A stretch of 64,000 nucleotides of DNA from Acutalibacter sp. 1XD8-36 (GTDB taxonomy: Bacteria > Bacillota > Clostridia > Oscillospirales > Acutalibacteraceae), in contig NZ_QZDU01000007.1 of NCBI RefSeq assembly GCF_009917525.1, positions 62,001 through 126,000 of the forward strand, given 5' to 3'. The notes beneath the pieces are model-generated. The model was not told the DNA's origin. It made no database searches and saw only the letters and a list, made by a program, of their open reading frames with translations. Of the stretch, positions 1,230-33,717 are shown one piece after another (position 1 is the stretch's first letter; the number at the start of each line of letters is the position of its first letter). A program made the translations under genes and the position numbers.

Positions 1230-1243
1230 AAGGGGGGACGGTC

Positions 1244-2080: not shown

Positions 2081-2115
2081 AACAATAAACATTTTTAAGA
2101 GAAAGGAGCAATATC

Positions 2116-4242: not shown

Positions 4243-4245
4243 GGC

Positions 4246-5489: not shown

Positions 5490-6479
5490 ATGGGGATAAC
5501 TCTGGGAATAGTCGGATATGGAAGCACAGGGGAGCTGCACCATAAACAGGCTGAGAAGGTAGAGGGAGTTACTGTAATAGGGGCCTATGATATTGACCCG
5601 GCCCGCCAGGATGCTGCAAAGGCAAACGGTATCCGCAGGTTCGGCTCTTTAAAGGCACTGCTGGGGTGCAGAGAAATAAACACTGTGCTGATTTCAGCGC
5701 CGGTCAGCCGCCATAAGGAGCTGTGTGCGGCGGCAGCCAGGGCCGGGAAGCATGTGGCCTGTGCGGCACCTGCCGCGCTGAGCGCCTGGGACCTGGACCG
5801 GATAATTGCAGCCGTAGGGCGGAGCGACAGGGTATTAGCAGTCTGCCAGAGCCACCGTCTGGACGGAGATTTTTGCACGGTAAAAAAGCTGCTGAATACC
5901 GGCAGGATGGGGAAGGTTTATTCCATACAGGTCCGGCTGCATAGCTGTGGGGACAAGTATGGCTGGCCTGACGGCTCTGAAGATGGCGGCATTTTATTCA
6001 GCTGGGGAATACATGTTATCGACCAGCTTATGTGGCTGCTGGGCTACGACGACTTTACCGGAGTGTTTTGCAGAACATGCAGTATGGGTCCGGCTGGCAC
6101 AGACGATTACTGTTTTTTGAGCTTCAATCTGGAGAGCGGAGGCGTAGTGCAGATAGAGCTTGACCGCCGCTCCCCGCAGGTATCCCCCCGCTGGACGGTA
6201 CTTGGTAACAAGGCGGCAGCCTTCCTGGGAGGCACAGCAGGGGAGGGCAGGGTAATCCCGCTGGAGCCCGGTACAGAGACAGGTGAAGGGGAGCTTCTGC
6301 CACCGGAGCCGGAGGAGACAGCCGGCCCTTTGGCAGCATACTACGGCAACCTGCGGGATGTTATGGACCTCAGCGGAAGGCTTTCTGTGCAGCCCTGGCA
6401 GGTGCGACGGGTCCTGAAGGCTGTGGAGGCGGCACTTCAGTCGGCTGAGACAGGGAAGCTGGTCAGCCTCAAGGGTTAG
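5490..6479 (+). CDS. Gfo/Idh/MocA-family protein lacking the EKP motif
   Basis: A 329-residue protein with an N-terminal Rossmann fold (GIVGYGSTGELH, residues 5-16) and a Gfo/Idh/MocA C-terminal beta-sheet domain (WGIHVIDQLMWLLG). Family enzymes use NAD(P) to oxidise or reduce hydroxyls of sugars and cyclitols; the lysine of an E-K-P motif is catalytic. Here the equivalent position reads C-A-A-P (in GKHVACAAPAAL), so both E and K are gone. It may therefore bind a sugar or nucleotide without turning it over, or use another residue. It is first in a unit with a sensor kinase and response regulator, which fits a sensing role, though that is inference. AAAGGAGG precedes the start. Confidence 0.85.
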   Translation: MGITLGIVGYGSTGELHHKQAEKVEGVTVIGAYDIDPARQDAAKANGIRRFGSLKALLGCREINTVLISAPVSRHKELCAAAARAGKHVACAAPAALSAWDLDRIIAAVGRSDRVLAVCQSHRLDGDFCTVKKLLNTGRMGKVYSIQVRLHSCGDKYGWPDGSEDGGILFSWGIHVIDQLMWLLGYDDFTGVFCRTCSMGPAGTDDYCFLSFNLESGGVVQIELDRRSPQVSPRWTVLGNKAAAFLGGTAGEGRVIPLEPGTETGEGELLPPEPEETAGPLAAYYGNLRDVMDLSGRLSVQPWQVRRVLKAVEAALQSAETGKLVSLKG

Positions 6480-6544: not shown

Positions 6545-8317
6545 ATGTCTTTGAAGAAGAAACTGATGCTGACAATGATTGGCATTGCCGTGCTGCCAAT
6601 CCTTTTACTGGGTAGCTTCTGCTACGGCTATTTCAAGCAAATACTGCTGTCTGACATCCGGCAGAGCAAGCTGCAGCATAACAGCCAGACAATATACGTT
6701 ATGGACAGCTTTTTCCTCTCCCTGGAGAAGATATCCGACTCCATGCTGATGAATGGGCAGCTTACAGAGGCCCTGGAGCGCACCTATTCCGGGCCAAAGG
6801 CCAAGGTGCTGAACTATCAGGACAAGCAGAAAATAGAAGACGCCCTTTACCGCAACGGCTACTATCTGGATAACAGGATAGACACCATCGCAGTGTTTCC
6901 TGAAAACAGCGATATGTTCTACTACTGCACCAAGCGCACAATAAATCCCGGCTACGATGTAAAAGCCGAGGACTGGTACCGGCAGATAGTGGATAATGAG
7001 GGGGCCCTCACGCTTATTGGCGTGCACGAGAACGAGCTAATCCTTCCGGAGTCTGCCCAGGAGAAGGAATACTGTGTGACCCTTGGGCGGAGCCTTCACT
7101 CGCCCAGAAGTTCCCAGCTGCTGGGAGTCATCCTGATAAACGTCAATGTGCAGGACCTTGAAAAGCTCTGGCCCCAGCGCCAAGCCGACCCACAGGAGCG
7201 GTTTTACCTATTGGACAGCCGGGCACAGGTGGTGTGCAGCGATATACGGAGAGAGGTGGGCACAACCTTCTTTATGCCCCAGCTAAGCGGGGGAGTCACT
7301 ACGGCCCGGGTAGATGGGGCCCTTTGCGATATATTGGTATCGGAGTCCTCAAACCCCGGATGGAAGGGGGTACGGCTGATTATGCGCAGTAAGCTGAACC
7401 GGGAGATAGCAGCCATGCCGTATATCTCCGTCGTTTTAGCCCTGCTGCTTATCGGGCTGGCGGTGGTTATGGCCCACTTCCTTTCCAAAGCCATAACCCG
7501 CCCGCTGCAGGAGCTGTACACAAAGCTGCGCTGGTTTGAGGCCCAGAAAAACGGCGAGGATTTTCATGAAAACCAGGTAGAGGTAAGGGGACTGTCCAAC
7601 AGCTACAACAGCATGATAGACGAGATAAACCACCTGACTATGCACAACTATGAGACCCAGACAAGGCTGAGGAAAACCGAGCTTCTGGCCCTGCAGTTTC
7701 AGATAAACCCACATTTTGTGTACAACACCCTGAGCTCCATTAAGTGGATGGCGGAGATGCAGGGCTCAAAGCGCATGGTGACGGCTCTGGATTCACTGAT
7801 AAAGCTAATGCAATTCTCATCCAAAAGCGGCAGCGACATCGTGTCTATCCGAGATGAGGTGCTGTTTATCCGGGACTACCTAAACCTGATAAACCTAAAG
7901 TATTTCGACAAGATACAGACAGATATCAGAATGGGGCCGGACACAGAGGACTGCGGGACACTGCGCTTCCTTCTACAGCCTATTGTGGAAAACGCTATCT
8001 GCCACGGCTTCAGCGAGTTCAAGCAGCCCAACAAGGATGCGGCAATCTCCATTGATATACGAAGGGAGGGGGATAGGATATTGTATGAGGTGAAAGACAA
8101 CGGGAAGGGTATGACTGAGGAGCAGGCCCGCAGGGCGCTGGAGTCAGAGTACCCGGCTAATTCCATGTCCTTTAATAAGATTGGCCTATATAATGTGCAC
8201 ACAAGGATACAGTATACCTTCGGCAGCCAGTACGGTATCAGTATTGACAGCAGGATGGGGGAATACACCCGGGTGCTGGTAGAGATACCGGCCCGGGCCT
8301 GTAAGGAGGAGCAATGA
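6545..8317 (+). CDS. YesM-type sensor histidine kinase
   Basis: A 590-residue membrane sensor. The order is membrane segment (about 7-29), extracellular Cache-like region (about 35-290), second membrane segment (about 293-312), HAMP linker, His_kinase domain with the phosphoacceptor in QINPHFVYNTL (His390), then an HATPase domain with DNGKGMT and the N box FLLQPIVENA. This is the class that regulates sugar-uptake operons in Firmicutes together with YesN regulators. Its stop overlaps the start of the regulator gene by four bases. It probably senses an extracellular sugar or the loaded binding protein, and controls the operon starting at 10041. Confidence 0.93.
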   Translation: MSLKKKLMLTMIGIAVLPILLLGSFCYGYFKQILLSDIRQSKLQHNSQTIYVMDSFFLSLEKISDSMLMNGQLTEALERTYSGPKAKVLNYQDKQKIEDALYRNGYYLDNRIDTIAVFPENSDMFYYCTKRTINPGYDVKAEDWYRQIVDNEGALTLIGVHENELILPESAQEKEYCVTLGRSLHSPRSSQLLGVILINVNVQDLEKLWPQRQADPQERFYLLDSRAQVVCSDIRREVGTTFFMPQLSGGVTTARVDGALCDILVSESSNPGWKGVRLIMRSKLNREIAAMPYISVVLALLLIGLAVVMAHFLSKAITRPLQELYTKLRWFEAQKNGEDFHENQVEVRGLSNSYNSMIDEINHLTMHNYETQTRLRKTELLALQFQINPHFVYNTLSSIKWMAEMQGSKRMVTALDSLIKLMQFSSKSGSDIVSIRDEVLFIRDYLNLINLKYFDKIQTDIRMGPDTEDCGTLRFLLQPIVENAICHGFSEFKQPNKDAAISIDIRREGDRILYEVKDNGKGMTEEQARRALESEYPANSMSFNKIGLYNVHTRIQYTFGSQYGISIDSRMGEYTRVLVEIPARACKEEQ

Positions 8318-9870
8318 ATAGGATTAGAATTGCGGTGATTGATGACGACAGCCTGATACGCCTGGGAATCTGCTCCTCAGTGGGATGGACCCAGCACGGA
8401 TATGAGGTGGTGGGCGAGGCGGACAACGGCCAGGCTGGCTGGGAGATGATACAGCGTGAGCAGCCGGACATTGTGTTTTTGGATATCAGTATGCCTGTAA
8501 TGGACGGCATAGAGGTCCTGAAGCTTATGCAGCAGGCGGGAGTACGCACGAAAGCGGTTATCCTCAGCTGCCACGATGATTTCCACCTGGTGAAGGAGGC
8601 CATGAAAAACGGAGCGTGCGACTACCTGCGCAAAAGCGAAATAAACAGCGATAACCTTCTAAGTGTACTGGATGAAATATGCCGGTCACTGCAGGAGCGG
8701 AGCGTGACCGGCGAGCAGCCCGGAAACTGGGAGAGCTACTCTGACAAATATGCCAGCTTAAAGCGGCTTATTGCCGGTCGAAGCGGCGCCAGTGAACACG
8801 CCTCTCAGGTGCGCTGGCTGGCAGTCCAGGAGAAGGAGTTGTACTGCGTGGTGTTTGCCGTTACCCACTATCAGCAGGTGATACAGCGGTATGACGAGGG
8901 TTATCCGTTTACCCTGGAGCATGGGGTGGTAAACCTGTCAAAGGAGGTGCTGAGGCAGCGGACAACAGAGCTGGAGCTGTTCGTGCTCAAGGAAAACCAG
9001 TATGTGCTACTGCTCAGCGGCGAGCCCAGGAGGGAGGAGGTTTTCTCACTGCTGGAGCAGATGGCGTCTGTGCTGAAAAACTACCTGAATGTAGAGGTGC
9101 AGTTTGGTGTTAGCGGTGTGATACAGAGCTTCTCAGCCCTGCCTAAGGCCTTTGGGCAGGCGGTATATTCACAGAAGCTCCACTACCTGCGCCCTGGGGA
9201 GACAGTAATACAGGAAATCCGCAGCGCCGGGGATACTATGAATGACCCGGGCTTCAGCAGGCTTGCCCAGGCTGCCAAAGACGCCGCGTCCCAGAAAAAC
9301 TATCCACAGCTTTTCGCCGGCCTGCACGAGGCGCTGCAGTGGCTGCGGCGGCATGGGAGCGGTAATCTTGATGTAGACGGAGTCCACCGGTTCCTTAGGG
9401 AGGCGGTGGAGGCTGTGCTGGTACAGGAGGGCAAGACAGCCGAGGCCTCTGTGCGGAAGCTTCAAAACTGCGGCAGCCTGGCAGAGACCGAAGAATTTTT
9501 TCAGGAGTTCCAGAAGGAGCTGCAGTCTGACGACGGGGGCCAGAATCACTATCTTATACGCGCGGCAGAGGAGTATATTCAGCAGAACCTAAGCCGTGGG
9601 GACATCTCCCTGGGGGAGATAGCTGACTACCTGATGATAAGCAAATCTTACCTTTGCCGCCTGTTCCAGAAAAAGCTAGGAATATCCGTGCAGCATTATA
9701 TGCACAACATACGCATTGAAAAGGCTAAGGAATATCTCAGCGACTTCCACCTGAAAATTTACGAGATTGCAGAGCTCACCGGATTCAACAGCTCCACGCA
9801 TTTCAATATTGTGTTCAAGAAGATAATGAACTGCACGCCGGTGGAGTACCGCAATGGGCTGAGGCACTAG
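8314..9870 (+). CDS. YesN-type response regulator, AraC-family output
   Basis: A 518-residue regulator. The N-terminal receiver domain has the acidic pair D10-D12 and phosphoacceptor Asp57 in PDIVFLDISMPVMDG. A long central region follows. The C-terminus (about residues 415-518) is an AraC helix-turn-helix pair, with ISLGEIADYLMISKSYLCRLFQ in the first unit and YEIAELTGFNSSTHFNIVFKK in the second. The ATGA overlap with the kinase gene indicates coupled translation. The likely target is the promoter directly downstream, ahead of the binding-protein gene. Confidence 0.93.
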   Translation: MNRIRIAVIDDDSLIRLGICSSVGWTQHGYEVVGEADNGQAGWEMIQREQPDIVFLDISMPVMDGIEVLKLMQQAGVRTKAVILSCHDDFHLVKEAMKNGACDYLRKSEINSDNLLSVLDEICRSLQERSVTGEQPGNWESYSDKYASLKRLIAGRSGASEHASQVRWLAVQEKELYCVVFAVTHYQQVIQRYDEGYPFTLEHGVVNLSKEVLRQRTTELELFVLKENQYVLLLSGEPRREEVFSLLEQMASVLKNYLNVEVQFGVSGVIQSFSALPKAFGQAVYSQKLHYLRPGETVIQEIRSAGDTMNDPGFSRLAQAAKDAASQKNYPQLFAGLHEALQWLRRHGSGNLDVDGVHRFLREAVEAVLVQEGKTAEASVRKLQNCGSLAETEEFFQEFQKELQSDDGGQNHYLIRAAEEYIQQNLSRGDISLGEIADYLMISKSYLCRLFQKKLGISVQHYMHNIRIEKAKEYLSDFHLKIYEIAELTGFNSSTHFNIVFKKIMNCTPVEYRNGLRH

Positions 9871-9919
9871 GCATATCTTATGTTGGTCAATATCTATAAA
9901 AAAGCAGCAATGAGGTTTA

Positions 9920-9949
9920 TTGAAATAAATGCCATAGTTACATTATACT
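9920..9949 (+). promoter_or_regulatory. Promoter of the GRE/sugar operon
   Basis: TTGAAA (9920-9925), an 18-base spacer and TATACT (9944-9949) lie about 90 bases before the binding-protein gene. No terminator is seen between here and 20735, so this promoter may drive the whole 10.8-kb operon. The AraC-type regulator encoded just upstream is the obvious candidate activator. Confidence 0.6.
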
Positions 9950-10040
9950 ATAACTACCATGGGATATGGAAAAAATCCGGCAGATGGAGGTGACACAAGG
10001 GACAGGCTCGAATAAAAAATATTGAATCGAGGTAAAGAAA

Positions 10041-11333
10041 ATGAAAAAAGTATTAGCATTGTTATTGGCATTATTGATGGTCTCAGCATTGGCTGCCTGC
10101 GGACAGGACGGAAAAGAGTCCTCAACTCCATCCAGCGGCACGGACAATAGCAGCATCTCCGGCGCCGCGGATGAAAGCCAGGCTTCCACCGGCGATACAG
10201 TTACCATCCGCATGGGCGGCTGGGGAAACTTTGCAGATGAGCACGAGCCGGGTACTGTGGGCATGGAGGAGGCCATTGGCGTAAAGGTGGAGTTTCAGAA
10301 GTACCCTACCGACGCTGCCTTCTGGGATAACCTGCCAGCTCAGATTGCCGCAAAGACGGCGCCTGAGTTTATCGCCCTAAGCAACGAGCTGTATCTGCCG
10401 TATATCAACGATGGGCTGATTATTCCAATAAGCAAATATATTGACGACGGCACCATAACCTGCTGGGATAGTATAGGCGATAATGTGAAAGATATCTGGA
10501 CCATAGACGGAGAGGTTTACGGCATTCCCTTCTATCAGACTCCCGCGGTGTTCGCGGTGAACATGGACCTATGGAACGAGGCCGGGCTCACAGAGGCAGA
10601 TTTTCCCGAGACTTGGGATGATGTGCTGGACGTATGCAGGGTCTTTAAGGACGAGCTTGGTATGACAGGGCTCTGCTTCAACACCCAGGAGTTCCACTTC
10701 ACACAGTATTGCCTGTCCTTTGGCGGCGGCTGGGGACTGGGCAAGACCATAGACACTCCCGAGAATGCGGCGGCATTACAGTTCATAATTAACGCCTACC
10801 ACCAGGGCTATGTGGTAACGCCCAAGGAACTGGGCGTCGGCTACGACGGCAATGTAGTTATGTCAGGCGATGCAGCAATGTCCACCGGCGGCACCTGGTA
10901 TGTAAACGACTTTAAGAAAAACGCTCCCGATGTGGAGGTGAAGTACCTGACCATTCCCCATGCCGAGGGCAAGGACGACGTTTCCGGTACATTCCATGCG
11001 CCGTGCTACGCGCTGCTCAAGGGTGGCGCCCATGAAAAGGAAGCAGCCATGGCAATTAACTATATGATGAATGACAGCCATGACGAAGCACTGATTGATA
11101 TAGGCTATATCCCCGTCAACTCCGACTTGTTTGATACGTTTAAAGAGAGGCAGCCAGAGCTTGCCGGCTTGGTCGACGCGGTATCCAAGTCCAACGGCTT
11201 CGGTTATCCCCCTGCCGGAAAGAAGTTTGCCGACGCCCTTATATCCAAGATGGAAGAGGCTCTTTTCAACTCGGATTCCACTGTAACCGGTTCTCAGATT
11301 GTGAAGGAACTGCAGGAGGAATATGGCGAATAA
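10041..11333 (+). CDS. Extracellular solute-binding lipoprotein (CUT1 sugar-binding)
   Basis: A 430-residue lipoprotein with a classical signal peptide (MKKVLALLLALL...) and lipobox LAAC with the lipidated Cys at residue 20, then a Ser/Gly-rich linker. The mature part has the family 1 solute-binding layout, with VYGIPFYQTPAVFAVNMD in the hinge region and FADALISKMEEALFN near the end. It captures an oligosaccharide or glycoside outside the membrane and delivers it to the two permeases downstream. GAGGT lies upstream of the ATG. Its mRNA end carries a strong stem-loop, which would explain higher expression than the permeases. Confidence 0.93.
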   Translation: MKKVLALLLALLMVSALAACGQDGKESSTPSSGTDNSSISGAADESQASTGDTVTIRMGGWGNFADEHEPGTVGMEEAIGVKVEFQKYPTDAAFWDNLPAQIAAKTAPEFIALSNELYLPYINDGLIIPISKYIDDGTITCWDSIGDNVKDIWTIDGEVYGIPFYQTPAVFAVNMDLWNEAGLTEADFPETWDDVLDVCRVFKDELGMTGLCFNTQEFHFTQYCLSFGGGWGLGKTIDTPENAAALQFIINAYHQGYVVTPKELGVGYDGNVVMSGDAAMSTGGTWYVNDFKKNAPDVEVKYLTIPHAEGKDDVSGTFHAPCYALLKGGAHEKEAAMAINYMMNDSHDEALIDIGYIPVNSDLFDTFKERQPELAGLVDAVSKSNGFGYPPAGKKFADALISKMEEALFNSDSTVTGSQIVKELQEEYGE

Positions 11334-11372
11334 AATTTGAATCATGTAAAGGGTTCAAAAGATGTGGTGTGG

Positions 11373-11402
11373 TCTCCCTGCCGGCTGCGTCCGGTGGGGA
11401 GA
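11373..11402 (+). promoter_or_regulatory. Intercistronic mRNA stem-loop after the binding-protein gene
   Basis: A twelve-base-pair stem (TCTCCCTGCCGG with CCGGTGGGGAGA, two wobble pairs) around a six-base loop. No T run follows, so it is not a typical terminator. Stem-loops in this position protect binding-protein mRNA from 3' decay in many importer operons. Confidence 0.65.
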
Positions 11403-11433
11403 TTCCATATATAAGAAAGGGGCTTATATAAAG

Positions 11434-12354
11434 ATGACGGCTGATAACACAGGAGGTAAGAAAAAGAAAACTAGTAAAATGAGAAGGCAGGAGGCGGTTG
11501 CAGGCTGGATATTTGTGCTGCCGGCAGTGCTGTTTTGGCTGATATGGTTTCTGTACCCGGCCCTAAAGGCAATCTCCATAAGCTTTTTCCAGTATAACTA
11601 TGCCACGCCTGAGACAAACACCTTCATAGGCCTGGCTAACTACGTCCGTCTGTTCCAGGACCCAAAGTTCTTCACGGCCATGGGCCACAGCTTTCTGATG
11701 GTGGCTATAGTCGTGCCTTTGCAGACAATACTGTCATTTGCCATTGCGGTACTGCTAAACGGGCCCATACGGTTAAAGGGATTTTACCGCTCAAGCTGTT
11801 ATATCCCATACGTCATATCTGCTATGGCGGTGACGATATTCTTCATGTACTTCTTCGTAAAGGGCGGGCCTGCGTCATCATTTTTCGCCCTATTGGGGAT
11901 GGAAAACGTGAGCTGGTTTGCCAGCACCAAGTATGCCATGGCCTTCCTGATGATTGTTTACGTCTGGCAGCAGGTGGGCTTCTATATGGTGATATTTATT
12001 GGAGCGCTGCAGGAGGTGCCCATGGAGCTGTACGAAGCGGCAAAGGTGGACGGCGCCAACGCCTGGCAGCGGCTGACAAAGATAACGGTGCCCATGATAA
12101 AGAACACCACCTATTTGGTGCTGACCTTCGGCATGATAAACGCCTTCCAAATATTTGACCAGATAGCCGCCATGTCCAAGCAGTCGCCTCTGGGTTCCCC
12201 TTCGGGAGCCACCAGCACGCTGGTGACCTTCCTGTATCAGCAGTCCTTCAGCTATATGGACATGGGGTACGGCAGCGCGGCGGCGGTAGTGCTTTTCCTA
12301 ATTATATTCTCTCTGTCAGCTGTAAGGGAAACTGCCGGAAGGAGGTCGGACTGA
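11434..12354 (+). CDS. Sugar ABC transporter permease (MalF/UgpA-type)
   Basis: An inner-membrane importer subunit of about 306 residues with a lysine-rich cytoplasmic N-terminus, six membrane segments and an EAA loop (LYEAAKVDGANAWQRL). The frame extends upstream to 11362 but that portion covers the mRNA hairpin. I start at the ATG at 11434, which has GAAAGGGG upstream. The last segment ends in RETAGRRSD, slightly shorter than usual. It works with the binding protein before it and the permease after it. No dedicated ATPase is encoded here. Confidence 0.92.
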   Translation: MTADNTGGKKKKTSKMRRQEAVAGWIFVLPAVLFWLIWFLYPALKAISISFFQYNYATPETNTFIGLANYVRLFQDPKFFTAMGHSFLMVAIVVPLQTILSFAIAVLLNGPIRLKGFYRSSCYIPYVISAMAVTIFFMYFFVKGGPASSFFALLGMENVSWFASTKYAMAFLMIVYVWQQVGFYMVIFIGALQEVPMELYEAAKVDGANAWQRLTKITVPMIKNTTYLVLTFGMINAFQIFDQIAAMSKQSPLGSPSGATSTLVTFLYQQSFSYMDMGYGSAAAVVLFLIIFSLSAVRETAGRRSD

Positions 12355-12355
12355 A

Positions 12356-13171
12356 ATGATTAAAAAACGCATGGCAAAGAGCCTTATTTACCTGTTCCTG
12401 ATTTGTTTGGCGCTTATATTCCTGGTGCCGGTGTTCTACGTGTTCTATAATTCCCTGCTGCCAAAGCGCTACATCGGCAGCTTTGTGCCGCCCAGTGTCT
12501 GGAGTTTCGACAACTATAAGGAGCTATTCTCAGAGTTCCCCATAATGCAGTGGTACGGCAATACAGCCATCTCAACTATAGCGGTGGTTGTAGGCAACAT
12601 CTTCTTCACACCCCTTGCAGGGTACGCTCTGGCAAGGCTGCGCTTCCCCGGCAGGAAGACCATCTTCCTTTGTCTTATGCTCTCAATGATGATTCCCGGC
12701 CAGCTTGTGCTGCTGCCCCAGTACATCATGATGGCGAAGGCAGGGATGGTGGACACCCTATGGGCAATTATCCTGCCCTACCTGTCACAGTCCATGTTTA
12801 TATTCATGTCCCGGCAGTTTTTTTACGGCATACCTGAGGAGCTGGAGGAGGCGGCGCGCATTGACGGCCTGGGGCGGTTTGGTACCTATTTCCGAATAGT
12901 GCTCCCAATATCGGGGGTGCTGCTTGCTACCATTGCCATCTTTAATTTTACGGGCACCTGGAACTCATACCTTGTGCCGTCCACATTTATCAGTTCCCCT
13001 GACAAGTATGTGCTTGTGGTGGGCCTGCAGACGGTGAATAACGAGCATTTCCAGCAGGAAAACCTGACCCTGGCAGGGGTGGTGCTCCTATCCTTCCCGG
13101 TAATCGGTTTCTTCATGTTCACCCAGAAATTTTTTGTGCAGGGCATTGCCACAGCCGGACTGAAGGGATGA
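12356..13171 (+). CDS. Sugar ABC transporter permease (MalG/UgpE-type)
   Basis: The second permease, 271 residues and six membrane segments, with an EAA loop (ELEEAARIDGLGRFGTYF) and the family C-terminus QKFFVQGIATAGLKG. The ATG lies two bases after the upstream stop and GGAGGT overlaps the end of the previous gene, so expression is coupled. It completes the importer whose cargo is presumably processed by the three oxidoreductases and the glycyl radical enzyme downstream. Confidence 0.93.
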   Translation: MIKKRMAKSLIYLFLICLALIFLVPVFYVFYNSLLPKRYIGSFVPPSVWSFDNYKELFSEFPIMQWYGNTAISTIAVVVGNIFFTPLAGYALARLRFPGRKTIFLCLMLSMMIPGQLVLLPQYIMMAKAGMVDTLWAIILPYLSQSMFIFMSRQFFYGIPEELEEAARIDGLGRFGTYFRIVLPISGVLLATIAIFNFTGTWNSYLVPSTFISSPDKYVLVVGLQTVNNEHFQQENLTLAGVVLLSFPVIGFFMFTQKFFVQGIATAGLKG

Positions 13172-13233
13172 ACGCTGTACAGAGAGTATAGCTTATCATA
13201 AAATATTTAATTTTATCAAGGAGGAAAGACTTA

Positions 13234-14322
13234 ATGAAAAAATGGAAGGTTGCGCTGATTGGCTGTGGCTCTATAGCAGACAATACATATCTGCCCAGGA
13301 TAAAGGATATTCCAGAGGCGGACATGGTGGCGGTGTGTGACACTATCCCGGAGAGGGCTAGGGACTATTCTGAAAAGTTCGCCGTGCCCGCCTGGTATAC
13401 CAGCATTGACGAGCTGCTGGAGAAATGCGATTTTGAGATACTCATGAACACCACATCAATCCCGGCCCATCATGAGATAAACATGAAGGCCCTGAAAGCG
13501 GGCAAACATCTCTATTCCCAAAAGCCTGTGGGCCTTACTGTGGAGGAGGTAACGGAACAGATAGAGGCGGCTGAAGCGGCGGGGGTAAAGTATACGGCTT
13601 CTCCAATACATATGCTGCGGGACGATATCCGTTTCGCAAAAAAGCTTATTGCCGGGGGCTGCATCGGTGAAATTATGAAGGTGCATACCAATGTGTGCCA
13701 CGGCGGGCCCGAGTATTTCCAGTACCGCACCGCCGACCCCACATGGTTCCACCGGCCCGGCAGCGGAGCACTGTACGATATGGGTGTGCACGGCCTCACT
13801 ATGACGACCGGTATATTAGGCCCGGCAAAGGCAGTGGGGTGTATGGCGAAAATATCCGAACCGGTCCGCACGGTGCGTTCGGGCAGCTTCGATGGTATGC
13901 AGATTCAGGCAAACCAGCTGTATGACAACTATATCATCACCCTGGACTATGGCGACCGCACAATGGCTGTGGTGGAGTCGGGATTCTGCCAGAAGAACAG
14001 CAGGGCCCCGCAGATGGAGATATTCGGCACAAAGGGCACAATCTCCTTTGTGGAAAACGGCAGCTGGATGCCCCTTGACATCTATCTGGACGCACCGGAG
14101 CGGGGGATTAGAGGCTGGCTGCAGCCGATGGAGTGGGATATCCCTGCCAGCGAACAGAACTTTTTCCAGTGCATGGTGGTGCAGGACCTGATACATGCCA
14201 TTGAGGAAGACCGCCCGGTGGGCCTGCCCCCCGAGCACGCCCGCCATGTTGTGGACATCATGTGTACAATACCCGAGGCCATAGAGACCTGCAGCATAGT
14301 GCCCCTGCACACCACGTTTTGA
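13234..14322 (+). CDS. Gfo/Idh/MocA-family oxidoreductase (first of three in operon)
   Basis: A 362-residue NAD(P)-dependent sugar/cyclitol dehydrogenase homologue. The Rossmann motif is GCGSIADNTYLP (residues 10-21). The catalytic motif reads QKP (in GKHLYSQKPVGL), keeping the lysine but replacing the usual E by Q. The C-terminal domain contains GSGALYDMGVHGLTM, where a histidine aids catalysis in relatives. AAGGAGGAAA precedes the ATG. Enzymes of this family oxidise the 3-hydroxyl of glycosides or inositols to ketones, a plausible first step after uptake; the true substrate is unknown. Confidence 0.9.
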   Translation: MKKWKVALIGCGSIADNTYLPRIKDIPEADMVAVCDTIPERARDYSEKFAVPAWYTSIDELLEKCDFEILMNTTSIPAHHEINMKALKAGKHLYSQKPVGLTVEEVTEQIEAAEAAGVKYTASPIHMLRDDIRFAKKLIAGGCIGEIMKVHTNVCHGGPEYFQYRTADPTWFHRPGSGALYDMGVHGLTMTTGILGPAKAVGCMAKISEPVRTVRSGSFDGMQIQANQLYDNYIITLDYGDRTMAVVESGFCQKNSRAPQMEIFGTKGTISFVENGSWMPLDIYLDAPERGIRGWLQPMEWDIPASEQNFFQCMVVQDLIHAIEEDRPVGLPPEHARHVVDIMCTIPEAIETCSIVPLHTTF

Positions 14323-14352
14323 GCTAAAACAAAGAAAGAGAGGTAAGCTTAA

Positions 14353-15477
14353 ATGAAGAAGAAATACCGCATAGGGCTGGTGGGCTTCGCCCATATGCAC
14401 GTGCTGGACCAGATAAAGCCGTTCCTGGCTATGCCGGAGCGTGTGGAGTGGATAGGCGCGGCGGATATAAAGCCCCTGGTAGAGCCAGAGTATTTTGAAA
14501 GCTCCAGCCGCAGTATGAACCTGGAGCTGTGCCGGAAACAGTGCGGCTTTGAAAAAGTATACGAAGACTATATCCAGCTTTTGGAGCAGAAGCCAGACCT
14601 GGTACTGGTAAACTGTGAAAACGCCTTTCATGGCACAGTGATACCAGAGATACTGATGAGAGGCATCCACGTGGTAGTGGAGAAGCCTCTGGCCTACTCC
14701 ACAGCCCATGCCATGGCTATAGAACGAGCCTCCCGCATAGGAGGCGGCAAGTGTATGATAAACTGGCCCACCACCTGGCAGGCAAGCATACGCCTGGGCC
14801 AGAGGCTGGTGAGTGAGGGTGCCGTCGGCAAGGTCTACCGTTTCCAGTTCCGCAACCCGGACTCCATGGGCCCCTTCTCCTACGGACAGGTGATGACCGG
14901 CCGTCAGCTCGGCAAAGAGTGGTGGCACCAGGAGGCGGCAGGCGGGGGGAGTATGCTTGACTACTGCTGCTACGGTACAATACTTTCAAACTGGTACTTA
15001 GGCCAGGAGCCACAGGGGGTCTACGGACTGAAGGCCAACTTTAACCATCGTTTCGGGGATGCAGAGGACTATGCATCAATCACCGTGCGCTATCCCGAGG
15101 CAGTTTCCATCCTTGAGGGTACCTGGAACACTGTCAGCAGTGGCTACCCCTCAGGGCCAATAGTATGGGGCGAGAAGGGTGCTTTGATAGTGGAAAACGG
15201 CGGCGACCACGGAGCTCATGCCAATGTGTGCGTATACCATGACCGCTACTCCACAACACCCAGCGAGGTCTACTGCTCAGACGACTACCCATTGCCCGAG
15301 GGCAGGGATGACCTTGCAAAGGAAGTGTTCTATCACCTGGAGACAGGTGAGCCCATCCACTATACGATGGACCTTCGGAACAATATCTTGTCTGCCGCCA
15401 TGCTGGACGCAGGCTTGCGCTCCAGCCGTTCCCTGAAAATGGAAAATATAAAAAACGCCTGTTGGACCATCGGCTGA
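14353..15477 (+). CDS. Gfo/Idh/MocA-family oxidoreductase (second)
   Basis: A 374-residue homologue with a Rossmann start of the GFAHMH type (GLVGFAHMHVLDQI), the canonical EKP motif (HVVVEKPLAYS) and a histidine-containing C-terminal segment. It is clearly diverged from its two paralogues in the operon, so it probably has a different position or substrate specificity rather than being a recent duplicate. It is followed closely by the isomerase-fold gene. Redox function is well supported by family; the substrate is not. Confidence 0.9.
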   Translation: MKKKYRIGLVGFAHMHVLDQIKPFLAMPERVEWIGAADIKPLVEPEYFESSSRSMNLELCRKQCGFEKVYEDYIQLLEQKPDLVLVNCENAFHGTVIPEILMRGIHVVVEKPLAYSTAHAMAIERASRIGGGKCMINWPTTWQASIRLGQRLVSEGAVGKVYRFQFRNPDSMGPFSYGQVMTGRQLGKEWWHQEAAGGGSMLDYCCYGTILSNWYLGQEPQGVYGLKANFNHRFGDAEDYASITVRYPEAVSILEGTWNTVSSGYPSGPIVWGEKGALIVENGGDHGAHANVCVYHDRYSTTPSEVYCSDDYPLPEGRDDLAKEVFYHLETGEPIHYTMDLRNNILSAAMLDAGLRSSRSLKMENIKNACWTIG

Positions 15478-15500
15478 CAGGCACTGATAGGAGGAGAAAA

Positions 15501-16388
15501 ATGAAGCTAGCTAATGTTGCCTGGGGCTGGACGCCCATACCGGAGGATATGCCCGAGGGGGATTCACTTATCAATATTGCCAGCCAAATCCGCAGCCTGG
15601 GCTTTGAGGGCGTGGATTATCTGGGAACTCCCGAGGCGCTGGACCAGTTCTTTACCGAAAAGGCGGCGAAGTCTCTGGGGGAGCATTCCCGCACCATAGG
15701 ACTTGAGCCAAATGTGTTCGTCTTCCAGGAAGCCGGCTGGAATGACCCCAACAGCGTCCGGCAGGCTGACTGTCTGGCCCATTTTGAGAAAGCGGCTCAG
15801 ACAGCTGTAAATATCGGCTGTAGGATAGTCTCGACACTAGTACCGCTGCCCTGGGGCACTGCCGGCTGGCAGTTTAACCCTGCGGCCCCGGCTATAAAGC
15901 AGAGTTACCGTATGCCCTCAGGCTATTGCTACAAAAATGACTGGAATAACTTGATGGACAGCTACCGCAAATGCCTTGCCATCGCCAAAAAGCACGGCCT
16001 GCGCATGTCGGTCGAGTGCTTCCCCGGCTCCATAGTCTCCACACCCCACGCCATGCTGAAAATGCTTGAGGACGTGGACGACCCGGAATTCGGTATCCAG
16101 CTGGACACAAACCATCTGGTGGCCCAGCATATAGACCCGGAGTGGTCCATATATGTCCTCGGCGGGGAGCATATTTTCAATGTGCACTGTAAGGACTGCG
16201 ACGCCGTGTCCAGGAGTAATATTCCCGCCGGCTGCGGTATCACGGACTATACGGCGGTCATAGCGGCGCTGAAAAATGTGGGCTATACCGGCAATCTGTC
16301 TGTGGAGCTAGAGTTTACCGACAACCCCCGCCGCTATAACAGGCAGGCGCTGGACCATCTCAGGCTATGCCTGGCAGGAGAATACTAA
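15501..16388 (+). CDS. Sugar phosphate isomerase/epimerase-fold protein (AP_endonuc_2 TIM barrel)
   Basis: A 295-residue TIM barrel with the four metal ligands of xylose-isomerase-like proteins: Glu172 (SVECFPGS), Asp202 and His205 (QLDTNH), His229 (NVHCKD) and Glu269 (SVELEF). Relatives include inosose dehydratases, ketose epimerases and the subunits of C-glycoside-cleaving enzymes that act on 3-keto sugars. The frame is open to 15462, but GAGGAG directly before the ATG at 15501 fixes the start. Its position between Gfo/Idh genes suggests it acts on a keto intermediate they produce. Confidence 0.88.
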   Translation: MKLANVAWGWTPIPEDMPEGDSLINIASQIRSLGFEGVDYLGTPEALDQFFTEKAAKSLGEHSRTIGLEPNVFVFQEAGWNDPNSVRQADCLAHFEKAAQTAVNIGCRIVSTLVPLPWGTAGWQFNPAAPAIKQSYRMPSGYCYKNDWNNLMDSYRKCLAIAKKHGLRMSVECFPGSIVSTPHAMLKMLEDVDDPEFGIQLDTNHLVAQHIDPEWSIYVLGGEHIFNVHCKDCDAVSRSNIPAGCGITDYTAVIAALKNVGYTGNLSVELEFTDNPRRYNRQALDHLRLCLAGEY

Positions 16389-16403
16389 AGAGGAGAGCAT
16401 TAT

Positions 16404-17531
16404 ATGAAAACATACAAGGTTGCCATTATCGGCAACGGAATGATATGCAATGCCGCCCATATCCCAGCTTACAAGTCTATGGGGGACAGGATAGAGCTGG
16501 CGGCGGTGGCTGACATCCGCGAGGAGGCGGCCCGGGAGACGGCCCAGCGTCACGGCATTTCCAGGTACTATACGGACCCGGCAAAAATGCTGGAGGAGGT
16601 AAAGCCGGACATTATCTCAGTCTGTACCCCCAATGCCTACCATAAGCACTACACACTTATGGGCTTTAAGGCCGGGTGCCATGTAGTCTGCGAGAAGCCG
16701 GTGGCTATGAGCAGGGCAGACGCCAGAGAGATGTTTGAGGCGGCAAAAACTGCTGGTATGAGGCTTTTTGTGATACAGTCACTGCGGTTTATCGGGAACT
16801 TTGCAGCCGCAGCAGGGATTGCCCAAAGCGGCTGCCTGGGGGATATTTACTATGCAGACCTAAATCTGGTGCGGCGTAGGGGCGTTCCCCGCTGGGGAAT
16901 GTTCCATATGGCCAGTGAGAATGTAGGCGGCTCCTTTTGCGATTTGGGCGTGCATATGTGCGACTACCTCATGTATATCTCCGGCAACCCAAGGATGACG
17001 GCAGTAAGCGGTAGCGCTGTAACAAGGATTGTAAATCATGAGGAGAATGTCACCTTTTCAAATGCGGAGAGCGGCGCGCCGACAGGACTTTTCACCCCCA
17101 GAAAGTTCCGGATGAAGGAATTTGATGTGGAGGAGTTCTCCAACGGCTATATCCGGCTGGACAACGGCATGACAGTCACCTTCAAGATATCCTGGGCGCT
17201 GAACCTGCCCAACTGCAACACTGTGAGTATTTGCGGCGATAAGGGCGGCCTGTCTATTGGTGACGACGGCCTGCGGCTGCTGACTACCCAGGGGGCATAC
17301 CAGACAGACGTGACTCCAAGGGTGTTCCCTGACGAGTATTCGGCTATCTCGGACTTTACCGGGCATATACATGAGCTCAAGTATATCCTGAAGGTTCTGG
17401 ACGGTGAGATGACAATGGAGGAGTACCCAATCCGGCAGGAGGAGGTCATGAACGTGGTGTCGATAATCGAGGCGTTCTATAAGTCCGCAAAGCTTGGCAG
17501 AGAGGTGCGTTTTGACGAGCTGAGTGAGTAA
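16404..17531 (+). CDS. Gfo/Idh/MocA-family oxidoreductase (third)
   Basis: A 375-residue enzyme with a nucleotide-binding start GNGMICNAAHIPAY, the canonical EKP motif (HVVCEKPVAMS) and the C-terminal motif GGSFCDLGVHMCDYLMYISG with a conserved histidine. It follows the isomerase by 15 bases. With three such enzymes in one operon, successive oxidations and a final reduction of one sugar ring are a reasonable model, as in known 3-keto-glycoside and inositol routes. A hairpin separates it from the glycyl-radical pair. Confidence 0.91.
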   Translation: MKTYKVAIIGNGMICNAAHIPAYKSMGDRIELAAVADIREEAARETAQRHGISRYYTDPAKMLEEVKPDIISVCTPNAYHKHYTLMGFKAGCHVVCEKPVAMSRADAREMFEAAKTAGMRLFVIQSLRFIGNFAAAAGIAQSGCLGDIYYADLNLVRRRGVPRWGMFHMASENVGGSFCDLGVHMCDYLMYISGNPRMTAVSGSAVTRIVNHEENVTFSNAESGAPTGLFTPRKFRMKEFDVEEFSNGYIRLDNGMTVTFKISWALNLPNCNTVSICGDKGGLSIGDDGLRLLTTQGAYQTDVTPRVFPDEYSAISDFTGHIHELKYILKVLDGEMTMEEYPIRQEEVMNVVSIIEAFYKSAKLGREVRFDELSE

Positions 17532-17538
17532 AATACCT

Positions 17539-17562
17539 TGGTGCGGCTTATCTGCCGCACCA
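17539..17562 (+). promoter_or_regulatory. Intercistronic hairpin between oxidoreductase and activase genes
   Basis: A perfect nine-base stem (TGGTGCGGC with GCCGCACCA) and a six-base loop. Only a weak T-rich stretch follows (ATCTTTAAAA), so it is more likely an mRNA processing or stability element than a full terminator. It could lower expression of the activase relative to the upstream genes. Confidence 0.5.
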
Positions 17563-17586
17563 TATCTTTAAAATAAGGGAGAAGAC

Positions 17587-18489
17587 ATGAAAGGAATAAT
17601 TACTGAAATCGAAAGGTTTTCACTGCGTGACGGCCCCGGTATACGCACAACGGTATTCTTAAAGGGCTGCAATATGGCCTGTAAATGGTGCCATAACCCG
17701 GAGACCCTGCAGATAAAGCCCCAGCTTATGGTCTATCCGGAGAAATGCCTGGGCTGCGGAGCCTGCGTAAGGGTCTGTCCGTCTGGGGCAAGAACTATTA
17801 AGGACGGAGCTCTGCACTACAGCCGTGCCATCTGCACAGGCTGTGGGGCCTGTGCCAATGACTGCTTTACAGGGGCGCTCATTCTCTCCGGCAGAGAGAT
17901 GACAGTGGAGGAGGTGATGGAGGAAATCCTTCAGGACAGGGCGTATTATAAAAATTCCGGCGGCGGAGTTACCCTCTCCGGCGGGGAGCTGACGACACAG
18001 CCCGAGTTTGCCAGGGCGCTGCTTGAGACAGTAAAGGCGGAGGGGATATCCACGGCCCTTGAGACGAATATGCACGCCCCCTGGCATGTATATGAAAGCC
18101 TGCTGCCCCTAGTGGACCTGGTTATGTTCGACATTAAAATTTTTGACTGCGAGGCCCATAGGAAATGGACCGGGGTAAGTAACGAAAGGGTTCTGGAAAA
18201 TGCCCGGAAACTTGCAAAGACAGGGAAGGATTTTCTTGTCAGGACTCCTGTTATACCCGGGGTCAATGACTCACAGGAGGAGATTGGCAATATCGCTGAG
18301 TTTGCAGGCAGTCTAGGGGGCGCGCAGTATTACGAGCTGCTGCTGTTCAACCCTCTGGGTGAGAGCAAATATCAGGCGCTGCAGACGGACAATCACTTTG
18401 AGGGAGCCAGCCCGTCGCCCGTTAAGACCGCGGACAGGCTGAAGCAAATAGCTGAGGAGCGCTCGGGCATGCCTGTGCGGGTGGGCTGA
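17587..18489 (+). CDS. Glycyl-radical enzyme activating enzyme (radical SAM)
   Basis: A 300-residue radical SAM enzyme that would install the glycyl radical on the GRE encoded next. The SAM-cluster motif is Cys28, Cys32, Cys35 (GCNMACKWC). It is followed by an inserted ferredoxin-like domain with two CxxCxxCxxxC sets, Cys54/57/60/64 and Cys83/86/89/93. This two-extra-cluster layout is the one found in activases of non-PFL glycyl radical enzymes such as dehydratases, decarboxylases and lyases. The SAM-binding motif GGGVTLSGGE is near residues 122-131. The following gene begins about 40 bases later. Confidence 0.94.
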   Translation: MKGIITEIERFSLRDGPGIRTTVFLKGCNMACKWCHNPETLQIKPQLMVYPEKCLGCGACVRVCPSGARTIKDGALHYSRAICTGCGACANDCFTGALILSGREMTVEEVMEEILQDRAYYKNSGGGVTLSGGELTTQPEFARALLETVKAEGISTALETNMHAPWHVYESLLPLVDLVMFDIKIFDCEAHRKWTGVSNERVLENARKLAKTGKDFLVRTPVIPGVNDSQEEIGNIAEFAGSLGGAQYYELLLFNPLGESKYQALQTDNHFEGASPSPVKTADRLKQIAEERSGMPVRVG

Positions 18490-18527
18490 ACTTATGGAAG
18501 CGTCACATTATAGAAAGGATGTGCAGT

Positions 18528-20735
18528 ATGGAAAACAGGGTAAATATCTTTAGTCCGGACGAGCTGATGGATTATGGGCGCAGGATAAAGATACTCAGAC
18601 AGCGCAAGCTGGAGGAGACGAAAATTAAATCGAAGATGAAAGTATACCAGGACGGCGACGACTATGGCAGCGTTCCGGCCCCGGAGGATTACGAGTTTAA
18701 GTGTATCCCAAACCATGAAAACGGCTCCTGGTATGGCTATGAGGGCTGGAGCAGAAACTTCCATAAGCTGATGAGCGAGCACCCGGTATATATCGACTCG
18801 GTGGACGCGTTCTCATGCCGGTGGATGTACAGCATGATATGGTTTGATGAAAAGTCACCGGAAAAGGGGCTTAACTGGAATCCGGATTACTCCTACGACT
18901 ACCTGAAGCCAGAACAGGAGCTTTACGGTATAGTGCCCGGAATAGGCTCTGACGCCCACTTTGGAGGCGACTATGAGCTGGGCCTGTCCCTGGGCTGGGG
19001 AGGACTGCTGGATAAGCTGGCGGTCTACAGGGAGAAGAACCCGGAGCATAGGGCGTTCTACGACGCCGAAGAGCTGGTGATACACGGCATACAGAACTGG
19101 ATGAACAGAGCTATAGATGAGGCCGAGCGGCTGGCGGAAATAGAGCAGCATCCTGTTCTCAAAGACAATTTATTGCAGATGGTTAAGGTCAACAGGAATA
19201 TTGTCAGCGGAGCTCCGCAGACCATGCGGGAGGCTTGCCAGTGGGTCTGCTGGTTTAATATGGCAAGCCGTACCTACAACCGGGACGGAGCCGGTTTCCA
19301 GCTGGACCAGGTGTTAAAGCGCTACTACGACGCAGACCTGGCAACAGGGCGCATAACCCGGGAGGAGGCGGTTTTCTATATCGCCTGCCTGCTTTTAAAC
19401 GACCCGCACTACTACCAGATAGGCGGCACAGACGGACAGGGCAATTCACTTCTCAGCGAGTTCAGCGATATGGTGCTGGAGGGCGCTGATATGCTGGATT
19501 CGGCCTGCAATATCACTGTGCGGGTGGACAGGAACATAGACCGGGACTTTCTGCACAGAGCAGTGGATTATCTCTTTAAAAACCGAAACGGCTGGCCCCG
19601 CTTCTCCGGCGACGAGGCATTGAATGAGGGATTTATGCGGCTGGGCTACCCGGAGAGCCTTGCCAGGAAACGGATTGCAGTTGGGTGCCACTGGATGAGC
19701 CTGCCGGGGCTTGAGTACTGCCTTAACGACTGCGTGAAAATAAACTGCGCCAAGGTGTTTGAGATTGCCCTTGATGAGATGATGGGCGGCGAGGGACCGT
19801 ATTCCACAGAAAGGCTTTGGGGGCTTTACGAGAGGCACATGCTCCGGGCGGTGGAGGTTACCGCTGAGGGGATAGCCTTCCATCTGAAGTACCAGCAGTA
19901 TAATGAGCCTGAGCTTATGTTGAATCTAATAAGCCACGGACCGGTGGAGAAGGGGCTTGACATGACCTGCGGCGGGGCGATGTACTACAATATGTGCATG
20001 GACGGCACGGCAATCGCTACCGTAGCCGACTCCTTCGGTGCCCTTCAGCAGCGGGTGGAAAAGGAAGGAAGGCTGGGCTGGCAGGAGCTTTACAGGCACT
20101 TGAAGACCGACTTCCGAGAAGAGGGGGGAGAGATAGTCAGGCGAATGCTGGCCTCCAGCCCGCGATACGGCGGCGGGGACACCATAAGCGACCGCTGGGC
20201 CCAGAAGCTTTCGGAGTCCTACGCCGGGCAGGTACGCAGTGTCAGCGGGAGATATCCGGGATGTGAGTTCATCCCCGGATGGTTTAGCTGGTCCAACACT
20301 ATTGTGCTGGGCAAGCAGGTCGGAGCCACACCCAACGGACGCCACGCCTTCGAGCCCATAAACCATGGGGCCAATCCCCACCCCGGCTTCCGCAGGGATG
20401 GGGCGCTCACAGCAATGAGCAACTCCATTTGCGCCATCCAGCCAGGCTACGGCAACACGGCTCCCGTCCAGCTGGAGCTGGACCCAGGCATGGGCAGGGG
20501 AGAGGAAGCTGTGCAGAAAATCGCAGACTACATCCTGACACTGTTTCAGCAGGGAGGAACGCTGCTGAACATCAACATCATCGACAGCAGGCAGATACTG
20601 GAGGCGGACAAGGACCCGGATAAATACCCCGACCTGGTGGTGCGCGTCACCGGATTCACAGCCTACTTCTGTTCGCTGACACCGGAGTTCCGTAAGCTGG
20701 TGGTGGACAGGATTTTAGTGCAGGGCGGGGCTTAG
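18528..20735 (+). CDS. Glycyl radical enzyme of unassigned substrate, atypical active site
   Basis: A 735-residue PFL-fold glycyl radical enzyme. The glycyl motif RVTGFTAYF places the radical at Gly709. The thiyl loop reads VGCHWMSLPG with Cys387; aligned relatives usually have G-C-V-E, so the glutamate two residues after the cysteine is replaced by Trp and Val by His. GATPNGR near residue 603 is conserved. An ATG at 18519 touches the ribosome site, so I start at the ATG at 18528 with AGAAAGG nine bases upstream. It is somewhat shorter than the usual 780-850 residues. The operon (importer, three dehydrogenases, isomerase) suggests a carbohydrate-derived substrate. It does not match any family I can name with confidence. 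Confidence 0.92.
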   Translation: MENRVNIFSPDELMDYGRRIKILRQRKLEETKIKSKMKVYQDGDDYGSVPAPEDYEFKCIPNHENGSWYGYEGWSRNFHKLMSEHPVYIDSVDAFSCRWMYSMIWFDEKSPEKGLNWNPDYSYDYLKPEQELYGIVPGIGSDAHFGGDYELGLSLGWGGLLDKLAVYREKNPEHRAFYDAEELVIHGIQNWMNRAIDEAERLAEIEQHPVLKDNLLQMVKVNRNIVSGAPQTMREACQWVCWFNMASRTYNRDGAGFQLDQVLKRYYDADLATGRITREEAVFYIACLLLNDPHYYQIGGTDGQGNSLLSEFSDMVLEGADMLDSACNITVRVDRNIDRDFLHRAVDYLFKNRNGWPRFSGDEALNEGFMRLGYPESLARKRIAVGCHWMSLPGLEYCLNDCVKINCAKVFEIALDEMMGGEGPYSTERLWGLYERHMLRAVEVTAEGIAFHLKYQQYNEPELMLNLISHGPVEKGLDMTCGGAMYYNMCMDGTAIATVADSFGALQQRVEKEGRLGWQELYRHLKTDFREEGGEIVRRMLASSPRYGGGDTISDRWAQKLSESYAGQVRSVSGRYPGCEFIPGWFSWSNTIVLGKQVGATPNGRHAFEPINHGANPHPGFRRDGALTAMSNSICAIQPGYGNTAPVQLELDPGMGRGEEAVQKIADYILTLFQQGGTLLNINIIDSRQILEADKDPDKYPDLVVRVTGFTAYFCSLTPEFRKLVVDRILVQGGA

Positions 20736-27600: not shown

Positions 27601-27654
27601 CCGCGCCGGTTGGACTTTACAGCCGGCCATTTTCATGAAAGGGGGTGCTGCCTA

Positions 27655-29436: not shown

Positions 29437-29439
29437 CTT

Positions 29440-32269: not shown

Positions 32270-32340
32270 AACGCAAAGCGCATTTTGAGTTTTATACGTA
32301 TTGGACCAAAAAATACGCACATATCAAGGAGGTGATGCCC

Positions 32341-32850: not shown

Positions 32851-32870
32851 TTATCGGAAAGGACAGATAT

Positions 32871-33575: not shown

Positions 33576-33717
33576 TTTTTTAGGCTTTCAAAATACACAG
33601 CCCATGCCAAGGCTATGATTCTGGGATTTTCTGGCTTTTCTGCTCCCTCAAATGCACAAAAAACGACGTTGAGGGTTGTAGAGATGTCGGGATTTCTCTC
33701 AAAGGAGATGAGGTAGA

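Follow-up and report, generated by a model that had tools for sequence, protein, structure and literature searches.

A putative keto-glycoside operon of Acutalibacter sp. 1XD8-36 with a glycyl-radical enzyme that lacks the C-X-E motif

Results

A nine-gene locus with an importer, three dehydrogenases and a glycyl-radical enzyme

The window analyzed here is a stretch of 64,000 nucleotides from Acutalibacter sp. 1XD8-36 (contig NZ_QZDU01000007.1), and all coordinates are positions in this stretch. Positions 10041-20735 are filled by nine genes running in the same direction, which Pfam assigns to a solute-binding lipoprotein, two ABC permeases, the Gfo/Idh/MocA enzymes GfoA and GfoB, a TIM barrel, a third such enzyme (GfoC), a radical activase and a glycyl-radical enzyme (GRE), confirming the gene set that an earlier note had read from the sequence, together with its position next to a YesM/YesN regulatory pair (Table 1). 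Judged by its sequence, the GRE belongs to a separate, undescribed clade without the C-X-E motif of GRE eliminases, and the locus is best explained as a ycj/dgp-type keto-glycoside operon that has acquired a GRE of this branch.

The eight intergenic gaps measure 1-62 bases, and an AG-rich stretch resembling a ribosome site is clear by eye before six of the eight downstream genes. Short gaps and the match of an upstream site to the promoter consensus are compatible with a single transcript for all nine genes, as the earlier note had supposed in placing them behind one promoter; that part of the claim is not proven, however, the same scan having returned 19 promoter-like sites against 9.8 in shuffled sequence. 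A GC-rich hairpin between the GfoC and activase genes could give the two halves of the operon different expression, and a comparable hairpin with different letters occupies the same place in the related loci L002 and L060 (not clearly in L068). The YesM/YesN pair also adjoins the operon in L067 (the L002 genome), L068 (the L003 genome), L004 and L060.

Across its 3.2 Mb the genome holds 21 Gfo/Idh matches, of which the window contributes four; the occurrence of three such genes within 4.3 kb is not due to chance. The genome's single PF02901 match is the operon's GRE. The fourth Gfo/Idh gene of the window (5490-6479, by Pfam), which the earlier note had passed over, lies upstream of the YesM/YesN pair. 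Its protein reads A-A-P at the site where E-K-P is usual in the family, and it may not be an active dehydrogenase.

Table 1. Features of the operon and its flank, with positions in the window
Feature	Position	Strand	Basis or remark
YesM-like sensor histidine kinase	6545..8317	+	Pfam His_kinase, HATPase_c
YesN-like response regulator with AraC domain	8314..9870	+	Pfam Response_reg, HTH_18
Promoter-like site upstream of operon	9920..9949	+	TTGAAA-18-TATACT, consensus match 10/12; not evidence of function
Sugar-type solute-binding lipoprotein	10041..11333	+	Pfam SBP_bac_8 (E 1e-28)/SBP_bac_1; YcjN match not detectable
ABC permease, YcjO-like	11362..12354	+	Pfam BPD_transp_1; 29% to YcjO over 258 columns
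ABC permease, YcjP-like	12356..13171	+	Pfam BPD_transp_1; 29% to YcjP
GfoA, putative Gfo/Idh/MocA dehydrogenase	13234..14322	+	Pfam; solved relatives DgpA (N-terminal half), then 6jw6
GfoB, diverged Gfo/Idh/MocA enzyme	14353..15477	+	Pfam; aldose-aldose and glucose-fructose oxidoreductase, E 8e-12
AP_endonuc_2 TIM barrel, YcjR-like fold	15501 (ATG)..16388	+	Pfam; AF2 pLDDT 83; Foldseek rank 1 YcjR 6wn6
GfoC, putative YcjS/DgpA-type glycoside dehydrogenase	16404..17531	+	31% to YcjS; DgpA 7xr9/9m3d top in PDB
9-pair hairpin separating GfoC and activase genes	17539..17562	+	z -4.5
GRE-activating radical SAM enzyme with ferredoxin-type domains	17587..18489	+	TIGR02494 341 bits, cut-off 174
Glycyl-radical enzyme, C-x-W clade, 738 aa	18519..20735	+	Pfam PFL-like and Gly_radical; AF2; Foldseek PflD
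Codons of Cys390-His391-Trp392 (eliminases: C-X-E here)	19686..19694	+	Alignment
Codon of Glu399, invariant alongside Trp392 in clade; candidate replacement acid/base	19713..19715	+	Role inferred
Codon of Gly712 in RVTGF, glycyl-radical site	20652..20654	+	Alignment

The GRE lies outside the characterized families

Fold, glycyl loop, cysteine and activase together identify the operon's GRE, on modeling and sequence grounds, as a genuine glycyl-radical enzyme. Its AlphaFold2 (AF2) model (pLDDT 84.9, pTM 0.89) finds PflD as best Foldseek match (TM 0.82/0.79 at 22% identity), other GREs scoring almost as high. The glycyl-radical loop RVxG[FY] is present, its glycine (Gly712) being kept in 26 of 26 family rows, both sister rows and all nine other rows of a joint alignment, and Cys390 on the Cys loop is conserved in every aligned row. 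The predicted cognate activase scores above the TIGR02494 cut-off, and across the 37 related loci described below an activase is found on the same strand close to the GRE in 34; in the other three (L034, L037 and L038) the contig ends no more than 228 bp after the GRE.

Membership in a characterized GRE family was rejected by NCBIfam models, PDB sequences, Foldseek and the tree. The best NCBIfam score was 244 bits against a cut-off of 678 (TIGR01774), TIGR01255, for pyruvate formate-lyase, gave 82.7 against 994 bits, and the protein falls far under the cut-off of every NCBIfam GRE model that it matched. It is 16-22% identical to the solved GREs among the Foldseek matches listed, and its closest solved relative by sequence is PflD (8yjo, E 1e-49). 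The operon had been described in the earlier note as uncharacterized, and these scores, along with the GRE's own long branch in the tree, bear this out; clustering with a characterized GRE, looked for as a refutation, did not occur with any of them.

A clade with tryptophan in place of the eliminase glutamate

A contig scan for relatives of the GRE returned 37 loci (46-91% identity), which amount to fewer than 37 independent cases: several are duplicates (L002=L067, L003=L068, L009=L061/L100, L044=L063, L045=L062), the pair L006 and L007 stems from a single bin, and L026 and L027 almost duplicate each other. The loci span Bacillota (including Neglectibacter timonensis), Verrucomicrobia, Kiritimatiellae, Lentisphaerae/Victivallales (including Victivallis vadensis) and one Phycisphaerae bin. 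Sample sources include goat, sheep and yak gut, and we interpret additional bin codes as pointing to termite gut or rumen.

The Cys loop reads G-C-[H/N]-W at all 37 loci, none of which has the C-X-E motif. In the joint alignment the residue at C+2 is Trp in all 26 complete family rows and both sister rows, as against Glu in all nine other GREs, E. coli PflD and YbiW included. Five GREs beyond the alignment also carry C-X-E: L054, L055 and L057, and two of the eleven other GREs selected for it, L053 (C-Q-E) and L056 (C-A-E), which were left out as their glycyl loops did not fit the search pattern. Two more of the eleven form the sister rows. A weaker relative, L046 (25%), has a G-C-Q-W loop and likewise Glu at C+9, the position of Glu399, which is invariant together with Trp392 in the clade. 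His147 is also invariant, with His at the same position in eight of the nine other aligned GREs, and many further columns are uniform within each group but differ between the clade and the other GREs. In the tree (37 rows, partial GREs left out) the 28 C-x-W rows stand apart from the other nine at a branch length of 2.3 changes per column (support 100/100); long branches meet elsewhere in the tree and the finer order is unsure, and as the division between the 26-row family and the sister pair is weakly supported (64/38), only the 28-row split was used.

Within the window's genus the clade was found at E 1e-80 in 6 of 29 genomes, one of them (G028) with only a short frame. A survey of the phylum at the same threshold found it in 1 of 299 genomes, the window's own, with at most three first-look candidates scored per genome, so that GRE-rich genomes could hide members. 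The GRE relative in G028 (L062:8754-9914) is a frame of 386 aa only, and the activase, barrel and dehydrogenase beside it match over most of their length. In G051, a genome of the same order (L063-L065), 11 matches are GRE-like, and two belong to the sister group with G-C-N-W loops.

In GRE eliminases the cysteine takes a hydrogen, and a glutamate two residues on is generally held to remove a proton. The available excerpts of PMC7077986 and PMC8473560 give C-X-E as a conserved feature of these enzymes and its Glu as the likely base in most, and an excerpt of PMC12451663 does the same for the Glu of CutC. The eliminases (glycerol and propanediol dehydratase, CutC, HypD, IslA) resemble the clade in fold, activase type, glycyl loop and the His147 position, but share, by the same excerpts of the first two sources, the CXE motif that the clade lacks.

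The loss of this eliminase-defining motif at every locus would suit a GRE that performs no elimination at all and acts instead as an epimerase on a sugar carbon or by breaking a C-C bond. We consider this quite improbable, given that the adjacent Cys-Cys pair of pyruvate formate-lyase (C418/C419 in the available part of PMC10591478) is absent, the loop reading G-C-H-W in the window and G-C-[HN]-W elsewhere, and that no second Cys is invariant (Cys330 occurs in 25 of 26 family rows and is Ile in the sister rows).

PflD and YbiW, reportedly anhydro-hexitol 6-phosphate lyases, share with the clade the GRE fold and the Cys and Gly loops, and S-[LI]-P-G after the Cys is common to PflD and most C-x-W family members. 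PDB titles name complexes of both with anhydro-hexitol 6-phosphates. Their likeness leads to a second alternative, a lyase of this kind that opens or dehydrates an unoxidized sugar, polyol or 1,5-anhydro-sugar, with another residue replacing the CXE Glu and with the dehydrogenases and TIM barrel only preparing or tidying up epimers. The ranking of PflD as best solved relative by both sequence and fold, and the invariance of Glu399 and His147, speak for such an enzyme. Yet the lead of PflD is small (TM 0.82 compared with 0.70-0.82 among the other matches listed), the clade is divided from PflD and YbiW by the long branch given above, and the nine genes include no identified aldolase or phosphotransferase system (PTS) gene, unlike the surroundings of E. 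coli pflD. The two proteins further differ from the clade in having C-X-E, in identity (22% and 20%), in their neighbors, and in a longer loop before the IGG motif. We therefore rate the alternative as rather unlikely.

Partner enzymes resemble those of 3-keto-glycoside pathways

Over 373 columns GfoC shares 31% identity with E. coli YcjS (E 3e-54), and its top PDB matches are DgpA proteins (9m3d and 7xr9, E 7e-49 and 6e-46). GfoA matches DgpA across its first half and then 6jw6 (titled 'Dehydrogenase' in the PDB), which we take to be levoglucosan dehydrogenase; GfoB is nearest, weakly, to aldose-aldose and glucose-fructose oxidoreductase. At a position where many Gfo/Idh enzymes have D-x-G-x-H, GfoB reads D-Y-C-C-Y, as in the Tyr-type enzymes of the glucose-fructose oxidoreductase group. 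In Foldseek the TIM barrel finds YcjR at rank 1, with D-psicose 3-epimerases close behind and a 2-hydroxy-3-keto-glucal hydratase at rank 19.

E. coli ycjNOPQRS has the same order of binding protein, permease, permease, dehydrogenase, TIM barrel and Gfo/Idh gene. In sequence the likeness extends to GfoC and both permeases (29%), not to the lipoprotein. The window differs in having two further Gfo/Idh genes and no YcjQ-type dehydrogenase (homologues of YcjQ, YcjM, YcjT and YcjU were absent among the 16 window proteins compared), and in carrying an activase and a GRE where the E. coli cluster has kojibiose phosphorylase and phosphoglucomutase. Functions of the Ycj and Dgp proteins are taken from the E. 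coli record and from PMC11543891, PMC8563793 and PMC11170127; YcjS is a D-glucoside 3-dehydrogenase and YcjR a 3-keto-glycoside (glucoside) 4-epimerase. The statement in the earlier note that no described pathway has this set is partly upheld: we found no publication with exactly this set, but the first seven genes follow a ycjNOPQRS-like layout.

The C-glycoside cleavage systems DgpABC/DfgABE also combine a Gfo/Idh enzyme of the glycoside 3-oxidase type with an AP_endonuc_2 barrel. DgpABC differs in needing DgpB (CGDB), which has no match in the window's genome (PF19906, zero matches), and GfoC is only about 30% identical to DgpA. Within the genus, CGDB occurs in one of six GRE-positive genomes and in 7 of 23 GRE-negative ones; as CGDB is absent from the genome and shows no association in the genus, we rejected a role of the GRE operon in supplementing CGD-type C-glycoside cleavage. 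With four further Gfo/Idh genes that are 49-66% identical to DgpA and no CGDB match, the window's genome looks like a glycoside-3-oxidation specialist of another kind. Of the 17 Gfo/Idh genes found elsewhere in the genome, 16 match DgpA, L096 being the exception. The four closest are C21:128235 (L083), C21:138428 (L081), C54:145116 (L085) and C54:194457 (L082), with flanks L097-L099; three of these four sit in importer-type gene groups or next to a barrel-like gene, as judged from first residues only.

Dehydrogenases recur near the GRE in two branches

Profiles made from the window's own genes served to detect neighbors of the GRE. At 16 of the 37 loci a same-strand Gfo/Idh gene lies within about 8 kb of the GRE, in differing gene orders. 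Such genes are near the GRE in 7 of 10 Bacillota-labelled loci (the others being L005 and L007, both with little flank, and L024), and, after or before it, in 7 of 8 loci of a Victivallales-type group (L023, L026, L027, L030, L031, L032, L036; L033, the exception, has less than 0.8 kb of flank), whose membership we defined by tree position and record titles once the Gfo/Idh count was known. In L013 and L034 the distance is 7-9 kb. Relatives of GfoA, GfoB and GfoC (45-53%) accompany the GRE in L012, and Gfo relatives do so in L063, a locus of a different family within the order, where GfoB-like genes are at 29-33%; in the sister-clade loci L064 and L065, which belong to one genome, a Gfo/Idh gene precedes the activase by 3-4 kb. 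In L009 the GRE is directly followed by a gene for a close relative of DgpA (49-51%), and Gfo1 of Victivallis, also after the GRE, has DgpA as its top PDB match (E 1e-38). For the 302-aa Victivallis neighbor (L023:15959) no clear match was found. The dehydrogenase link thus holds for two branches, not for the whole clade.

The earlier note had taken conservation of importer and dehydrogenases around the GRE as a check on its reading. This is borne out for the dehydrogenases in the two branches just described, but not for the importer: the window-type binding protein and permeases occur only in three close relatives (L002, L003 and L060), and other importers are found in L008, L012 and L062.

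Ten of 43 neighbor proteins scanned have no Pfam family. Those that could be named include sulfatase, GH2, GH38, GH130, GH106, AGE epimerase, SSF symporter, AAA-ATPase, beta-lactamase-like, signal-peptidase-like and phosphatase proteins. Single neighbors (GH38, GH130, GH2, GH106, sulfatase, AGE epimerase) were dropped as substrate pointers, since they indicate no consistent sugar, and a mannose hint (GH38, GH2, GH130) comes from three loci only (L011, L014 and L024). The variation of neighbors between lineages, from carbohydrate enzymes to AAA-ATPase and phosphatase proteins, would be expected if the GRE acted on an aglycone or an unrelated metabolite and adjoined sugar-oxidizing genes through co-regulated degradation of one compound, and the Trp, His and Tyr positions peculiar to the family might also serve to bind a ring. 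To this explanation we assign a small probability, because carbohydrate genes are frequent among the nameable neighbors and at least two Gfo/Idh genes recur in differently ordered loci.

A possible radical step on a keto-sugar

Our best reading of the operon, to which we give slightly less than an even chance, is a radical step on a keto-glycoside or keto-sugar carried out without the usual Glu base. We infer the substrate and the reaction from components identified by sequence, fold or conservation (the gene set, the GRE fold, Cys390, Gly712, the activase, the loss of C-X-E, the YcjS/DgpA-like dehydrogenase and the YcjR-like barrel). A keto-sugar or cyclitol had been suggested as the substrate; the YcjS/DgpA-type dehydrogenase, the YcjR-like barrel and the repeated pairing with the GRE support the keto-sugar as a hypothesis, but nothing points to cyclitols in particular.

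The ABC importer would bring in a glycoside or an unusual sugar, and GfoC (or GfoA) would oxidize a ring hydroxyl, most likely at C3, to a ketone, beside which the TIM barrel would epimerize or eliminate. The activase would place a radical on Gly712, from where it would pass to Cys390, whose thiyl radical would abstract hydrogen from the carbon adjoining the carbonyl; the keto-stabilized radical would expel a neighboring C-O group (by ring opening, deglycosylation or dehydration), and the remaining Gfo/Idh enzymes would reduce the product. The Glu base may be dispensable because the ketone would acidify the neighboring hydroxyl, removing the need for the Glu of CXE, or Glu399 and His147 may serve as acid/base. 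A more far-reaching version, in which this class of GRE gave up its Glu base because the substrate carries an activating ketone made by a glycoside 3-dehydrogenase, and the enzyme is a radical keto-glycoside lyase, we regard as doubtful.

Several observations weigh against the keto-sugar reading. The TIM barrel has no phmmer match to YcjR (hhalign E 1e-5), the lipoprotein has neither a phmmer nor a blastp match to YcjN, and the window-type importer is missing even from L004. Among the genome's 21 Gfo/Idh genes GfoC is only sixth in likeness to DgpA (29-31%), and four others, far from the operon, are 49-66% identical to it; with the genome so rich in the DgpA-like family, the pairing of GfoC with the GRE is less special here. 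The view of GfoC as the DgpA orthologue was not borne out by this genome-wide comparison.

The strongest evidence against a keto-sugar as a rule for the whole clade is a branch of six loci (L013, L018, L019, L020, L022 and L025; labelled Verrucomicrobia, Kiritimatiellae, one Lentisphaerae and one bacterium without further label) in which an SSF symporter follows the GRE, as identified by Pfam scan in L022 and by protein cluster in the others. No Gfo/Idh gene lies within 7 kb of the GRE in this branch, and a GfoC-like gene (E 1e-30) was found in none of its five genomes searched, compared with 6 of 12 in the whole set. The substrate of the symporter branch cannot come from a GfoC-like enzyme, except where the gene falls in a part absent from these bins or is more distant. 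The same absence favors the PflD/YbiW-like lyase on unoxidized substrates considered above.

Other features of the window

A second sugar-type group (321-5172) comprises a PfkB kinase, an ADP-ribosylglycohydrolase-fold protein and a pair of permease-like genes that resemble YcjO and YcjP. Conjugation-type genes (27610-36740; NlpC/P60, a TraG-like ATPase and a coupling protein), starting a few kb past the GRE, suggest an integrated conjugative element. A surface-type protein of 1974 aa (42767-48691) has thioester, SpaA and six T-Q ester-bond domain stretches.

Discussion

We found no publication joining such a GRE with Gfo/Idh/MocA dehydrogenases in a search that left subscription papers mostly outside, which is not proof of novelty, and none linking a glycyl radical enzyme with anhydroglucitol. 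'Glycyl radical' together with '3-keto' led, among the matches listed, to quaternary amines and DesII only, and no C-x-W-like clade is described in the titles and abstract openings of the best 40 of 174 papers on GREs since 2024.

A clade that spans phyla and keeps the Cys and the glycyl loop with Trp in place of Glu must do other chemistry, or the same chemistry in another way, and its link to keto-glycoside enzymes provides a concrete set of substrates to try. Oxidative breakdown of glycosides has recently been described in anaerobic bacteria of the gut and elsewhere, and a step of the kind proposed would extend it by a radical route. If true, a radical keto-glycoside lyase would let anaerobes cleave glycosides or rings not attacked by beta-eliminases and hydrolases.

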